Positions 2,720 through 57,116 of a stretch of DNA of 64,000 nucleotides are shown piece by piece. Below the pieces are notes generated by a model. The model saw only the letters and a program-made list of their open reading frames with translations. It was not told where the DNA came from and ran no database searches. The DNA is from Pseudarthrobacter sp. MM222 (lineage in GTDB: Bacteria > Actinomycetota > Actinomycetes > Actinomycetales > Micrococcaceae). Every line of letters begins with the position of its first letter. Position 1 is the first letter of the stretch. The DNA lies in assembly GCF_947090775.1 (NCBI RefSeq), contig NZ_OX352321.1, positions 3,968,001-4,032,000 of the forward strand, read 5' to 3'. The position numbers were made by a program, and so were the translations under genes.

Positions 2720-3394
2720 ATGGACATTATCCGCTATGCCACGCTCAAAGCCCACCCCTGGCGCAACGGCGGCGGGGTGACCCGCGAGGTTGCCAGCGGC
2801 TACTCGCCCGGGGCAGAGGCTAGCACAACCCCCGCCGGCACGGCGCAGGATCCCGATTGGGACTGGCGGGTCAGCATCGCCGAGGTCTCCAAAGCCGGCG
2901 CCTTCTCCGCATTTCCCGGCATGGACCGCGTGCTGACCGTGCTCGAGGGCGAGCTGCTGCTGCTGAGCGTCGACGGCGTCGAACATCCGCTGGAGAAATA
3001 CCGCCCCTTCCGGTTCTCCGGGGATGCCGACTCGGCCGGCGCCCTGCCCACCGGTGACATCCGCGACCTCAACGTGATCACCCGCAGGGGCGTTTTCAAG
3101 GGGTACACCTCGATCATCGAGCTTTCCAAGAAGCGGGCCCATCCCGTGTTCGCAGGCCAGCTCGGCATCCTGCTGCAGGGCCAGGCAACGGTCGGCGCCG
3201 GCACTGCGGGTTCGGAGCCCGGCACGGCGCCAGCGGTCGGGACCGCCGCCGCCACGGCGCCAGCTGCCGTCGCCGAGCCCGTGACGCTTGACCGCTACGA
3301 CGCGGTCGTCGGCTCCGACACTGCCTCACCGGAAATCCTGGGCCGTGGCTTCCTGGCCGTGGTGTCCATCGACAGGATGGACGGCGAGCCCTGA
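2720..3394 (+). CDS. HutD/Ves family cupin protein
   Basis: The N-terminal signature YATLKAHPWRNGGGVTREV (substrate-pocket WRNGGGxTxE) identifies the HutD/Ves family, a bicupin fold found near histidine-utilisation genes or alone and linked to cold response in E. coli (Ves). Further family features are DWDWRVSIAEV, GAFSAFPGMDRVLTVLEGE and DLNVITRRGV. At 224 residues it is a little longer than usual because of an Ala/Gly/Thr-rich insertion around residues 150-185. No hut genes are nearby. The biochemical role is not settled for the family, though a small-molecule-binding function is generally assumed. Confidence 0.8.
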   Translation: MDIIRYATLKAHPWRNGGGVTREVASGYSPGAEASTTPAGTAQDPDWDWRVSIAEVSKAGAFSAFPGMDRVLTVLEGELLLLSVDGVEHPLEKYRPFRFSGDADSAGALPTGDIRDLNVITRRGVFKGYTSIIELSKKRAHPVFAGQLGILLQGQATVGAGTAGSEPGTAPAVGTAAATAPAAVAEPVTLDRYDAVVGSDTASPEILGRGFLAVVSIDRMDGEP

Positions 3395-3440
3395 TCCGTC
3401 TGGGATAAACTGGACCCAAGGCCTCACCTCCCCGCGGCCT

Positions 3441-3481
3441 CCGGACGACGGTTCAGTACCCGGCACACGACAAGACTGGCC
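3441..3481 (+). promoter_or_regulatory. guanidine-III (ykkC-III) riboswitch
   Basis: The 41-nt stretch CCGGACGACGG...ACCCGGCACACGACAAGAC...TGGCC matches the compact ykkC-III aptamer. P1 is CCGG 3441-3444 pairing CCGG 3460-3463. The conserved ACGA follows P1. P2 is TTCAGT (3452-3457) pairing ACTGG (3475-3479), which makes the H-type pseudoknot. The conserved ACAAGAC is at 3470-3476. The element ends just before the AGGAG Shine-Dalgarno (3484-3488) of the SMR gene, so guanidinium binding would control ribosome access. This matches known family biology (guanidinium exporters of the SMR family). The identification is by eye against the remembered consensus. Confidence 0.88.
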
Positions 3482-3493
3482 ACAGGAGCCAAC

Positions 3494-3817
3494 ATGTCGT
3501 GGTTAATTCTCATCCTTTCCGGGGCGCTGGAGGCCGTCTGGGCCGCCGCCCTGCACCGCACCTCGCAGGCGACGGGCCGACGCCAGCTGGCCCCGGCCCT
3601 GGTCTTCTTGATCTCCGTCCTCGCCAGCACCGGAGGCCTGGCCATCGCCATGCAGTCCATCCCGACCGGAACGGCCTATGCCGTGTGGGTGGGGGTCGGC
3701 GTCGTGCTGACGTCCGGCTACGCGATCGTCACCAAGGTGGAACGCGCGACGGCGGCCCGGATCCTGCTGCTCGGCGGGATCGCAGCCTGTGTGGCCGGCC
3801 TGAAAGTGGTGGCGTGA
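3494..3817 (+). CDS. SMR family guanidinium exporter, subunit 1 (Gdx/SugE-like)
   Basis: A 107-residue, four-helix small multidrug resistance protein. The first helix has the SMR carboxylate in SGALEAVWAAAL, the SugE/Gdx pattern (Glu followed by xxWA) rather than the EmrE pattern. The central GTAYAVWVGVGV loop/helix 3 motif is also present. SMR proteins work as antiparallel dimers exchanging substrate for protons in the inner membrane. The upstream guanidine riboswitch makes guanidinium the likely substrate. AGGAG lies 5 nt before the ATG. It overlaps nothing and is followed after 2 nt by a second SMR gene, so it is probably one half of a paired (heterodimeric) transporter. Confidence 0.88.
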   Translation: MSWLILILSGALEAVWAAALHRTSQATGRRQLAPALVFLISVLASTGGLAIAMQSIPTGTAYAVWVGVGVVLTSGYAIVTKVERATAARILLLGGIAACVAGLKVVA

Positions 3818-3819
3818 CC

Positions 3820-4206
3820 ATGTCCAGGCCGTCCGCCGTTCCATGGACCATCCTGCTGGCCTCAGCTGTGCTGGAAGCAGTCTGGGCCACCGCACTGGGG
3901 CTTTCCGACGGCTTCACCCGGCCGCTGCCCACCATGGTGTTCGCCGTCACCGCCGCCCTCAGCATGGTGGGGCTGGGCATGGCCGTGAAACGCATCCCGC
4001 TCGGCACCGCCTACGCGGTTTGGGTGGGGATCGGTGCGGCCCTGACGGTCGGCTGGGCGATGGCGACCGGCGTCGAACCGGCCAGTCCGCTGAAACTGCT
4101 CTTCATCGCGGGGATCGTCGGCTGCGCTGCCGGGCTGAAACTGCTGCCGGCCGGGAATGCGGAGACGCCGCGGCCGGCATCAGGCGCCGAGCCTCCCCGG
4201 GTTTGA
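3820..4206 (+). CDS. SMR family guanidinium exporter, subunit 2
   Basis: The 128-residue product keeps the four-helix SMR plan with SAVLEAVWATALG (conserved Glu retained) and GTAYAVWVGIGAAL. The C-terminus has an extra Pro/Ala-rich tail of about 20 residues. The ATG at 3820 is 2 nt after the stop of subunit 1, so the pair is one transcriptional and probably translationally coupled unit behind the guanidine-III riboswitch. Paired SMR genes typically insert with opposite topology. Both subunits here keep the transport glutamate, so each could in principle also act as a homodimer. Confidence 0.85.
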   Translation: MSRPSAVPWTILLASAVLEAVWATALGLSDGFTRPLPTMVFAVTAALSMVGLGMAVKRIPLGTAYAVWVGIGAALTVGWAMATGVEPASPLKLLFIAGIVGCAAGLKLLPAGNAETPRPASGAEPPRV

Positions 4207-4212
4207 GCCACT

Positions 4213-4244
4213 ACGGCGGCGCGTCCCACGGGGCGCGCCGTCGT
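4213..4244 (+). terminator. possible hairpin terminator after the SMR pair
   Basis: An imperfect inverted repeat (ACGGCGGCGCG 4213-4223 against CGCGCCGTCGT 4234-4244, 10-nt loop) lies 7 bp after the stop codon. There is no T-run, so it would be a weak or Rho-assisted terminator. The rest of 4245-4378 shows nothing identifiable apart from the leader of the next gene. Confidence 0.35.
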
Positions 4245-4378
4245 ACAGGCCACGCCGCAATCAAAGGTGGGGAGAATCGGCCGGCGAGGCGCGCGACCGG
4301 CAGCCGGAATACTCGCGCCCGGGCTGGAGTTCTTGGCAGGGACGACATTTCCCGGCAGCACAGAGGATGGGGATCCAG

Positions 4379-5392
4379 ATGAGCGCAGCAGCATCAGTCC
4401 GGCTCGGCGACGGCTTGCAGGTCAGCGCCCTGGGTTTCGGCGGCATGGCCCTGACGCCGGTGTATGGCGCAGTGGATCCCGCCGAGGCCCTGCGGACCCT
4501 GCACCATGCTGTGGATGCCGGTGTCAGTTTCATTGACACTGCGGACGTCTACGGCGGCGGCAGCAACGAGGAACTGATCGCCCGGCTGCTCAAGGAGCGC
4601 CGGGGGGAGGTCCAGCTCGCCACCAAGTTTGGCCTCGTCGGGACACCGGCAACCGGCTACTCGGACGTCCAGGGCGACCCCGCCTATGTGCGCCAAGCCG
4701 TGGACCGCAGCCTGCAACGGCTGGGCACCGACACTATTGACCTGTACTACATGCACCGCCGCGACCTCCGCGTTCCGATTGTGGAAACCGTGGAGGCCAT
4801 GGCGGAGCTGGTGCAGGCCGGCAAAGTCCGGCATCTTGGCCTGTCCGAGGTGACGGCCGAGGAGCTGCGTGAAGCCAGCAGCGTCCACCCGATCGCCGCC
4901 GTCCAGAGCGAATGGTCCATCTGGAGCCGCGACGTGGAACGCAACGTTGTTCCGGCCGCGGCCGACCTCGGGGTCGGCTTCGTGCCCTACGCGCCGCTGG
5001 GCCGCGGATTCCTGACCGGCACCGTGGAAGCCTCGACGCTGGGCAGCAACGACTTCCGCCGCAACATCCCGCGCTTTGCCGACGACGCCGCCGGGGCCAA
5101 CCAGGGTGTGGTGGCCGCCGTGCGGTCCGTCGCTGCGGAGCTTAGCGTTGCTGGGCAGGCTGCAACTCCCGCCCAGGTGGCGCTGGCCTGGCTGCTGGCG
5201 AAGGGCCAGCAGCTGGGGCTGCCGGTGGTTCCCATCCCGGGCACGCGCAAGGCGGTCCGGATCGACGAGAACCTGGGCGCCCTGGCGCTCGACTTCACTC
5301 CAGCGCAACTCGGCAGGCTCGACGCCGCCGCGGACGCCGTCGTCGGGTCACGCTCCGCGGACCCCAACTGGGTGTCCGAGGGCCGTGAATAG
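4379..5392 (+). CDS. aldo/keto reductase
   Basis: This 337-residue NADPH-dependent oxidoreductase has the (beta/alpha)8 AKR fold. Visible family motifs are GFGGMAL near the start, FIDTADVYGGGSNEE (catalytic Asp and Tyr), the LATKFG strand with the catalytic Lys, DLYYMHRRD (the His position), RHLGLSEV, and near the C-terminus VPIPGTRKAVRIDENLGAL (coenzyme 2'-phosphate binding). It resembles the YakC/AKR13-like group. The substrate cannot be told. The ATG at 4379 fits the conserved N-terminus, and an in-frame ATG at 4367 would add four residues. The next gene follows after 21 bp in the same direction. Confidence 0.88.
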   Translation: MSAAASVRLGDGLQVSALGFGGMALTPVYGAVDPAEALRTLHHAVDAGVSFIDTADVYGGGSNEELIARLLKERRGEVQLATKFGLVGTPATGYSDVQGDPAYVRQAVDRSLQRLGTDTIDLYYMHRRDLRVPIVETVEAMAELVQAGKVRHLGLSEVTAEELREASSVHPIAAVQSEWSIWSRDVERNVVPAAADLGVGFVPYAPLGRGFLTGTVEASTLGSNDFRRNIPRFADDAAGANQGVVAAVRSVAAELSVAGQAATPAQVALAWLLAKGQQLGLPVVPIPGTRKAVRIDENLGALALDFTPAQLGRLDAAADAVVGSRSADPNWVSEGRE

Positions 5393-48459: not shown

Positions 48460-48542
48460 GAGTAATGAGAACCGGCGCCAAGCCCTGACTGGCCGGTCGG
48501 CAACCCTCCCTCTTCGCGGCGGGGTGCCTCAGGTGAATACTC
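48460..48542 (+). promoter_or_regulatory. SAM-IV type riboswitch
   Basis: Upstream of the DUF1737-rhodanese-metZ operon the + strand has GGCCGGTCGGCAACCCTCC...CGCGGCGGGGTGCCTCAGGTGA, the core of the SAM-IV (and related SAM-I clan) aptamer. P1 can be GAGTA (48460-48464) with TACTC (48538-48542). It would switch off methionine-synthesis genes when S-adenosylmethionine is high, matching the metZ target. The boundary is approximate; a downstream pseudoknot hairpin (48543-48575) may belong to it. The strand is +. Confidence 0.82.
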
Positions 48543-48589
48543 GGCATATCGACCATTCGAGCTGCAAGCGTGAAAGAAGGAGCCCCGTC

Positions 48590-49323: not shown

Positions 49324-50532
49324 GTGACTTTCAATCCCGACGCCGCCGCCTGGAGCGCTGAAACCCAGGCTGTCCGCGGCGGTCTCGACCGTACCGGCTT
49401 CCAGGAAACCACCGAGCCGATCTTCCTCAACTCGGGCTTCGTCTACGAATCCGCAGCCGCCGCCGAGCGGGCCTTCACCGGCGAGGACGAGCGGTTCGTG
49501 TACTCCCGGTACGGCAACCCGTCGGTCGCGACCTTCCAGGAACGGCTCCGTCTGCTTGAAGGCACCGAGGCGTGCTTTGCGACGGCGTCCGGCATGTCCG
49601 CCGTGTTCACCGCGCTCGGCGCCTTGCTCGGCGCCGGCGACCGTGTGGTCGCTGCGCGCTCTTTGTTCGGTTCCTGCTTTGTAATCCTCAATGAGATCCT
49701 GCCGCGCTGGGGCGTGGAGACCGTTTTCGTCGACGGGCCGGATCTGGAACAGTGGCGTTCGGCGTTGTCGGAGCCGACGACGGCGGTCTTCTTCGAGTCG
49801 CCGTCGAACCCGATGCAGGAGATCGTGGACATCGCGGCCGTGAGCGAGCTGGCGCACGCCGCGGGCGCGACCGTCGTCGTCGACAACGTCTTTGCCACTC
49901 CGCTGCTGCAGCGCTGCGGGGATCTCGGCGCCGACGTGGTGGTGTACTCCGGCACGAAGCACATCGACGGCCAGGGACGGGTGCTCGGCGGCGCGATCCT
50001 CGGCACCAAGGAGTTCATTGACGGTCCGGTCAAGCAGCTCATGCGGCACACCGGCCCGGCGCTTTCGGCCTTCAACGCCTGGGTGCTCACAAAGGGCCTG
50101 GAGACCATGGCCTTGAGAGTGAACCACTCCTCGGCATCGGCGCTGCGGCTGGCCGAATGGCTCGAGGTGCAACCCGCAGTGAAAGCGGTGTTGTACCCGC
50201 TGCTGCCGTCCCACCCGCAGTACGAGCTGGCGGCGAAGCAGATGAAGGCCGGCGGCACCGTGCTGACGTTGGAGCTGTCGCCTTCCCCGGGGCGCTCCGC
50301 CAAGGAGGCAGCGTTCGCGCTGCTGGATGCGCTTCGGATCATCGACATCTCCAACAACCTGGGCGATGCCAAGTCCCTCATCACCCATCCGGCCACGACG
50401 ACGCACCGCGCCATGGGTCCGGAGGGCCGCGCGGCGATTGGTCTCAGCGACGGGGTGGTGCGGCTCTCCGTGGGCCTGGAAGACGTCGACGACCTGATCC
50501 GCGACCTCGGCCAAGCGCTCAAGCAGGTCTAG
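49324..50532 (+). CDS. metZ: O-succinylhomoserine sulfhydrylase
   Basis: The 402-residue PLP enzyme of the Cys/Met metabolism family converts O-succinylhomoserine plus sulfide to homocysteine. Motifs: YSRYGNPSVATFQERL, TASGMSAVFTALG, ESPSNPMQEIVDI, the PLP lysine K212 in YSGTKHIDGQG, and the C-terminal RLSVGLEDVDDLIRDL. It resembles MetZ of mycobacteria more than MetB. The GTG at 49324 directly follows the rhodanese stop. Expression should be controlled by the upstream SAM-IV riboswitch. Confidence 0.9.
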   Translation: MTFNPDAAAWSAETQAVRGGLDRTGFQETTEPIFLNSGFVYESAAAAERAFTGEDERFVYSRYGNPSVATFQERLRLLEGTEACFATASGMSAVFTALGALLGAGDRVVAARSLFGSCFVILNEILPRWGVETVFVDGPDLEQWRSALSEPTTAVFFESPSNPMQEIVDIAAVSELAHAAGATVVVDNVFATPLLQRCGDLGADVVVYSGTKHIDGQGRVLGGAILGTKEFIDGPVKQLMRHTGPALSAFNAWVLTKGLETMALRVNHSSASALRLAEWLEVQPAVKAVLYPLLPSHPQYELAAKQMKAGGTVLTLELSPSPGRSAKEAAFALLDALRIIDISNNLGDAKSLITHPATTTHRAMGPEGRAAIGLSDGVVRLSVGLEDVDDLIRDLGQALKQV

Positions 50533-56089: not shown

Positions 56090-56722
56090 TCAGGAGAACA
56101 CGGGCTCCGTGGCGGCCTTGCGCGAGGCGAAGGAACTCAGTACCCCGGTCTTCGCCAGTCCCCGGGTGGCGAGCCAGGACAGACCGCCGGCGATCACGGC
56201 ACCGGAGACGGCGGTGAAGATGATGTAGGCGAGTTTGTCGCCGCCGGCGTAAGCGATGTTCCAGCCCCACGGCAGGAACGAGTCATTGAGGCCGCAGAAG
56301 AGGCCCGCACCGGCACCGGCCAGCAACGCCACCGGCAGATTGAACTTCTTGTAGACCAGGGCGGCGAACACGAGCTCCGCGCCGAGCCCCTGCAGGACGC
56401 CGGAGATCAGCACCGTCGTGCCGTACTGGGACCCCATGATCAGCTCGCCGGTGGCCGCTACGGTTTCGCAGAAGAGGGCCGCGCCCGGCTTGCGGATGAT
56501 GAGCATGCCCAGTACGGCGGGAATCATCCAGCCGCCGGCGTAGAGCCCCGTCAGCGGCGGATACAGCGCGTTGACCGGGGCGGAAATCAGGTTGGCACCC
56601 TGGGACCAGGCCCAGAAGATGATGCCTCCGGCGACCGCAATCAAGGCGGCCACCACAATGTCCACTACGCGCCAGTTGTAGCTGCGCCGGGCCAGGCCCT
56701 GCTTGGCAGAAATATCAGTCAT
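56090..56722 (-). CDS. ykoE: ECF S component YkoE (thiamine precursor HMP uptake)
   Basis: The 210-residue membrane protein has five to six helices with WRVVDIVVAALIAVAGGIIFW at the start and FNLPVALLAGAGAGLFCGLNDSFLPWGWN near residue 145, matching the YkoE family of HMP/thiamine transporters. It gives substrate specificity to the YkoEDC ECF complex. The ATG at 56722 has AGGAGGACGAC upstream. It is directly preceded by a TPP riboswitch on the same strand, which supports thiamine or its pyrimidine precursor as substrate. Confidence 0.87.
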   Translation of the reverse strand: MTDISAKQGLARRSYNWRVVDIVVAALIAVAGGIIFWAWSQGANLISAPVNALYPPLTGLYAGGWMIPAVLGMLIIRKPGAALFCETVAATGELIMGSQYGTTVLISGVLQGLGAELVFAALVYKKFNLPVALLAGAGAGLFCGLNDSFLPWGWNIAYAGGDKLAYIIFTAVSGAVIAGGLSWLATRGLAKTGVLSSFASRKAATEPVFS

Positions 56723-56746: not shown

Positions 56747-56804
56747 GGAGAATGCACCGGCCGGCCGCGGCTTCCGCCACCCCGCCGTGCATTCTGAGAA
56801 CTCG

Positions 56805-56918
56805 ACTCCCTTGCGCCGGTACTAACCGGATCAGGTTCGAGGGTCTGCGGCTGTCCGCACTCTCAGCGCCCACCGATGGTCCCTGGATTCCTCCAGCTGC
56901 CGACGGCGGCGCTCCCCT
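56805..56918 (-). promoter_or_regulatory. TPP riboswitch (THI element)
   Basis: The minus strand reads GGGGAGC...CTGAGAG...CGAACCTGATCCGGTTAGTACCGGCGCAAGGGA, the typical thiamine pyrophosphate aptamer: P1 arms GGGGAG/CAAGGGA, the conserved CUGAGA of the pyrimidine pocket and the ACCUGAUC...GUACC pyrophosphate arm. It lies about 85 bp upstream of the ykoE start. The exact 5' limit is approximate. It is among the best supported RNA calls in this window. Confidence 0.9.
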
Positions 56919-57116
56919 GTCGTATTTAAGATCACCCTTGTGGGCGGTGTCAGTTTACACCCGCCCGGCGGGGTTTCCTTTGGGCGGGTGTCACATTCAC
57001 GCTGGCCCTCAGGCGGAGATGCTCCGCCGGAGCGGGCCCGTACCGTCGGTCCTCCCGTCAGGGACGGGACGCTAGGCTAGGGGAAGCCCCGTTCCCTCCC
57101 CGAAGGAGTCCGAAGA

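Follow-up and report, generated by a model that had tools for sequence, protein, structure and literature searches.

What controls the pair of SMR genes near the start of the window (the whole 64,000-nt stretch of Pseudarthrobacter sp. MM222 DNA analysed here), and what would the pair export? A preliminary description had read the 41 nt at 3441-3481 as a guanidine-III (ykkC-III) riboswitch folding into an H-type pseudoknot. This identity was borne out by a covariance search: the Rfam model RF01763 (Guanidine-III) matched 3416..3484 (+) over its full length (1-67) with 49.6 bits against a gathering score of 36 (E 2.8e-7), and the 41 nt proved to be exactly the core, from the 5' strand of helix P1 to the 3' strand of helix P2. 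When the whole genome (4.29 Mb, one contig) was scanned in the same way, the window element was the sole guanidine-III match found (E 4.5e-9).

Helix P1 (3441..3463 (+)) joins 3441-3444 to 3460-3463 with 4/4 pairs. Helix P2 (3451..3481 (+)) joins 3451-3457 to 3475-3481 with six of seven pairs, five of them contiguous: as listed, U-A, G-C, A-U, C-G, U-G, a U/C mismatch and G-C. The 5' hairpin of the Rfam model lies at 3421..3438 (+), where 3421-3425 and 3434-3438 form 4/5 pairs in the Rfam alignment. The conserved ACGA was read in the window sequence at 3445..3448 (+). By the numbering of the crystal structure, we take C3446 and G3447 to be the equivalents of the CG dimer and G3456 to be the equivalent of G17. 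The dimer and G17 are named as parts of the binding core in excerpts of PMC7736828, and a "perfectly conserved ACGA" is given as a guanidine-III trait in excerpts of PMC2864571.

The riboswitch sits in a 99-nt gap after a HutD/Ves-like gene (2720-3394, PF05962). As the preliminary description had stated, its 3' end adjoins a Shine-Dalgarno: in the sequence, AGGAG (3484..3488 (+)) starts two bases past P2, and the ATG of SMR gene 1 follows at 3494, 12 nt from the P2 end, i.e. the element forms the 5' UTR of the SMR gene. The setting typical of the class is the 5' UTR of an SMR (emrE) gene or of one of the speB type. An aldo/keto reductase gene (4379-5392, PF00248) lies downstream of the SMR pair. 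The element shares with the guanidine-III class its score over the cut-off, the P1 and P2 pseudoknot, the ACGA, its actinobacterial relatives and its place immediately 5' of an SMR gene's Shine-Dalgarno. It differs from the class in nothing material, and the one P2 mismatch (3452/3480) is common to nearly the whole genus. Judged by its sequence, the riboswitch is ordinary and intact, and its place before a Gdx-like operon of paired genes is an arrangement of known kind.

Elsewhere in the window, a SAM-IV riboswitch (48461-48576 (+), 86.4 bits) stands 5' of a gene at 49324-50532 that by eye encodes a methionine-pathway sulfhydrylase. A TPP riboswitch (56790-56928 (-), 62.2 bits) stands 5' of a minus-strand membrane protein gene (56090-56722), by eye part of an ECF-type transporter.

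Guanidine-III elements were present in 70 of 72 same-genus relatives. In the rest of the order, 19 of 46 sampled genomes had a match, 18 of them over the cut-off, and a sample across the phylum gave matches in 51 of 396 genomes, 42 over the cut-off. From genus and order, 91 elements were read, the window's included and the sole match under the cut-off (G073) omitted. The phylum sample added 51 places besides the window's, for 142 in all, among which G002 and G092 repeat elements already read. All of these could be anchored for comparison except three (L201, L206 and L207), all under the cut-off, leaving 139. Pairing in P1 and P2 was maintained across substitutions: over 40 distinct combinations, 90.2% of cells paired compared to 76.0% (sd 1.1) in column shuffles, a comparison that ignores relatedness and in which the two innermost P2 pairs are set by the anchoring and add equally to both figures. 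None of 500 shuffles reached the observed value, and P1 occurred in C-G, G-C and U-A versions among the relatives. The preliminary description had counted about 5 bp in P2, which agrees with the five contiguous pairs. It had also taken the short helix as a mark of this copy whose affinity may differ, and this part was not sustained: five contiguous pairs are the commonest form of P2, found in 104 of 139 elements, so nothing suggests an unusual affinity. For guanidine riboswitches in general, excerpts of PMC9574504 put binding at 60-200 uM.

Upstream of the element, a -10-like sequence TAAACT (3406..3411 (+)) follows a TAnnnT pattern whose position is conserved across the genus. Among 72 elements of the genus (L089 omitted), 70 had TAnnnT 31-36 nt 5' of CGGACGA, and 1 of 72 had it when a control stretch 200 nt further upstream was read. 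A scan for the sigma-70 consensus found nothing. The conserved -10-like element puts the probable transcription start at about 3416-3419, where the Rfam element begins, and the leader would then consist of little beyond the 5' hairpin, the aptamer pseudoknot and the Shine-Dalgarno. A search of 3250-4400 for terminator-like sequences found none; together with the short leader, this makes translation (and mRNA stability) the likely controlled step, and translational ON control would be the likeliest mode. The mechanism given for the class in excerpts of PMC12186494 is translational ON plus RNase E protection.

An alternative hairpin at 3467..3500 (+) is the proposed OFF state. It appeared in pseudoknot-free minimum-free-energy folds of 3405-3500, 3416-3500 and 3440-3500, from programs of a kind that cannot weigh such a hairpin against a pseudoknot. 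In the predicted fold, the start codon is spanned by pairing of 3467-3472 (ACGACA) with 3495-3500 (UGUCGU), and the Shine-Dalgarno by pairing of 3477-3481 with 3486-3491, so that without guanidinium the start site would be occupied by the J strand together with the 3' half of P2. Guanidinium would stabilise the P1/P2 pseudoknot, as is established for the class. Since the predicted OFF fold excludes the pseudoknot, ligand binding would free the start site and increase translation; the mRNA may also be stabilised, an effect reported for the class. Within the genus, the J strand paired with the start region better than in dinucleotide shuffles (mean z -2.3 over 57 distinct sequences, which are not independent of each other): in 70% of sequences at most 5/100 shuffles were as good, and the window itself gave 4/100. 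Outside the genus, pairing was not better than in shuffles (mean z -0.2, 58 sequences, 10%). We offer the OFF hairpin as a proposal for this lineage only, unsupported outside the genus.

The preliminary description had placed a Gdx/SugE-like SMR gene and then a second SMR gene behind the element, and both assignments were upheld. SMR gene 1 (3494..3817 (+), 107 aa) and SMR gene 2 (3820..4206 (+), 128 aa), 2 nt apart, matched PF00893 with 60.6 and 61.5 bits, respectively (cut-off 23.7). The best solved relative of both was Gdx-Clo (6wk5), with 52.3 bits for the first protein (E 5.2e-13; best EmrE entry 29.5) and 63.2 bits for the second (E 2.6e-16; best EmrE entry 33.5). SugE was the best NCBIfam model for both, ahead of Qac entries. 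Alignment with Gdx-Clo showed that the central Glu, the Tyr switch, the binding-site Trp and the GXG motif are kept in both proteins; these features are given for the SMR family as a whole (excerpts of PMC9574504) and so do not suffice to tell Gdx from Qac. Arg/Lys bias, computed with our own loop limits set on Gdx-Clo, was -4 for SMR gene 1 (outward-type subunit) and +5 for SMR gene 2 (inward-type subunit). Opposite charge bias marks fixed-topology antiparallel SMR heterodimers, and about 20% of Gdx are paired (excerpts of PMC9574504). Unlike Gdx-Clo, which is a homodimer, the window has two adjacent genes of opposite bias, and in nothing tested did they differ from the paired heterodimeric SMRs. 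Family membership and charge bias suggest that the two proteins would form an antiparallel heterodimer, carrying guanidinium out and protons in.

The same arrangement recurred among the relatives. The 73 same-genus elements preceded two SMR frames in 69 cases, a pair in which gene 1 is broken in one (L060), a single SMR gene in two (L003 and L087) and a different gene in one (L089). Elsewhere in the order, the SMR gene behind the element was paired in 5 of 18 cases and single in 13. Bias was negative for gene 1 and positive for gene 2 in 73 of 74 two-gene sets, and lay within +-1 in 14 of 15 single SMRs. Two genomes of the genus lack the riboswitch (G046, and G072, which is 83% complete), and no SMR gene was found in them either.

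Several further SMR copies were observed. The single SMR gene of L087 stands behind a second guanidine-III copy in G041, about 16 kb from the first; by eye it resembles the start of gene 1 joined to gene 2, and its bias is +4, unlike the other 14 single SMRs. G031 has an additional paired-SMR copy without an aptamer (L100, on the 9.2 kb contig C37), so that an SMR pair can exist without guanidine-III control. By eye, a genus-like promoter region there continues directly into the last P2 bases and the Shine-Dalgarno, the pattern that a deletion of the aptamer would leave. The window's own genome has a third SMR-family match (L034; 1092207-1092413 (-), 46.9 bits) without a guanidine-III element.

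We put the probability at about 0.92 that the locus is a guanidine-III riboswitch that would turn on translation of a two-subunit guanidinium exporter; no evidence contradicting the identification was found. The riboswitch could be real and the SMR pair could nevertheless mainly export other cations of the quaternary ammonium type, with guanidinium as inducer only. Paired SMRs are known in all four functional subtypes (excerpts of PMC9574504), and both proteins missed the 126-bit cut-off of the NCBIfam SugE equivalog NF008512 (71.8 and 64.6 bits). However, the SugE model and the Gdx-Clo structure clearly outscored the Qac and EmrE entries, and tested riboswitch-controlled SMRs are selective guanidinium exporters (excerpts of PMC12186494), which makes another main substrate improbable.

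The score of the element raises the further question of whether it is a decayed relic that has lost guanidinium binding: its 49.6 bits are the lowest best-match score of the 71 same-genus genomes with a match (its own included), the top being 63.9 bits. Yet L005, which differs by one base in the P1-to-P2 core, scores 61.0 bits, which places most of the deficit in the 5' hairpin, with its one mismatch and inserted bases. The ACGA, GUACCC and GACAAGAC motifs are intact, P1 keeps all four of its pairs and P2 its inner ones, and the -10-like element is conserved; we consider decay even less probable than a different substrate. A working switch on a guanidinium exporter is the reading that we retain.

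Across the phylum, guanidine-III elements also stand before other genes. Among the 51 places of the phylum sample, 39 preceded one SMR gene, three preceded a pair and nine preceded something else. Three of these nine precede genes of the arginase family, of which speB is a member: L157 was assigned by Pfam over part of the protein, and L168 and L169 by similarity to L157. speB figures in the original guanidine-III description (excerpts of PMC2864571). Another three (L162, L180 and L189) precede mutually similar proteins of 154-155 aa, and the one scanned of the three, from L162, belongs to PF06695, "putative small multi-drug export protein"; by sequence, this type of gene is a possible further guanidine-regulated transporter. 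The last three places are sub-threshold matches.

A different small membrane protein was encoded directly 3' of guanidine-III elements in 17 cases, 14 of them over the Rfam cut-off (L089 (= L134), L105 (= L135), L137, L139, L141-L147, L154, L208 and L211-L214). These genes belong to the CBU_0592 family, which a limited literature search indicated to be uncharacterised. The structure predicted for this branch has three helices in about 80-95 residues, and the prediction gave no informative match. A membrane residue was read by script in 50 loci, L154 being left unread, and the element was sought with our own model in all 51. All 11 linked genes read by the script carried Glu at this position; the unlinked genes had 7 Glu, 30 Asn, 1 Ser and 1 gap. 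By eye, both L154 and the gap locus (L148) have Glu, and in a second sample five linked and two unlinked genes all had Glu. Overall, an element was linked to 17 of 27 Glu-type genes and to 0 of 31 with Asn or Ser, counts that do not represent independent events, because the genes are related by descent, and in which most of the 31 Asn/Ser genes come from the window's own family.

In all 17 linked genes, the membrane Glu lies in an E-x-x-W motif (E-G/A/C/V-x-W, mostly LEGVW), which resembles the E-V-V-W of Gdx-Clo. The central Glu and binding-site Trp of Gdx-Clo are named as functional residues in excerpts of PMC9574504. Each of 11 tested genomes with a linked CBU_0592 copy had one guanidine-III match. 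No SMR match was found in five of them (G145, G599, G705, G605 and G571), and six had an SMR match elsewhere in the genome. In G014, from which L089 comes, there is also an SMR pair with a separate guanidine-III element. Among three genomes whose Glu-type gene is unlinked, G298 has an element before its SMR gene, and G537 and G495 have neither. Linkage, residue and motif together suggest to us, at even odds, that the Glu branch of CBU_0592 is a second guanidinium-transporter family in the actinobacterial guanidine-III regulon, replacing SMR exporters or standing beside them.

At a further CBU_0592 locus, L136 (Arthrobacter sp. SO5), a stretch at about 1443-1482 and 5' of the gene is guanidine-III-like by eye (CGGACGAG ... 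ACCCGA ... GACAAGG). It gave no Rfam match, and its sequence is possibly that of a variant or decayed aptamer.

For the window, the outcome is that two genes of a family commonly annotated as drug efflux receive a sound annotation as a two-subunit pump for guanidine export. The more surprising result is the CBU_0592 link, the window's switch being itself as in most close relatives. If the CBU_0592 branch does transport guanidinium, this would give a function to a family of unknown function, and guanidinium transport would have more than one origin among proteins of minimal size. Such a repeated origin would bear on why expelling guanidine is a necessity for so many bacteria.
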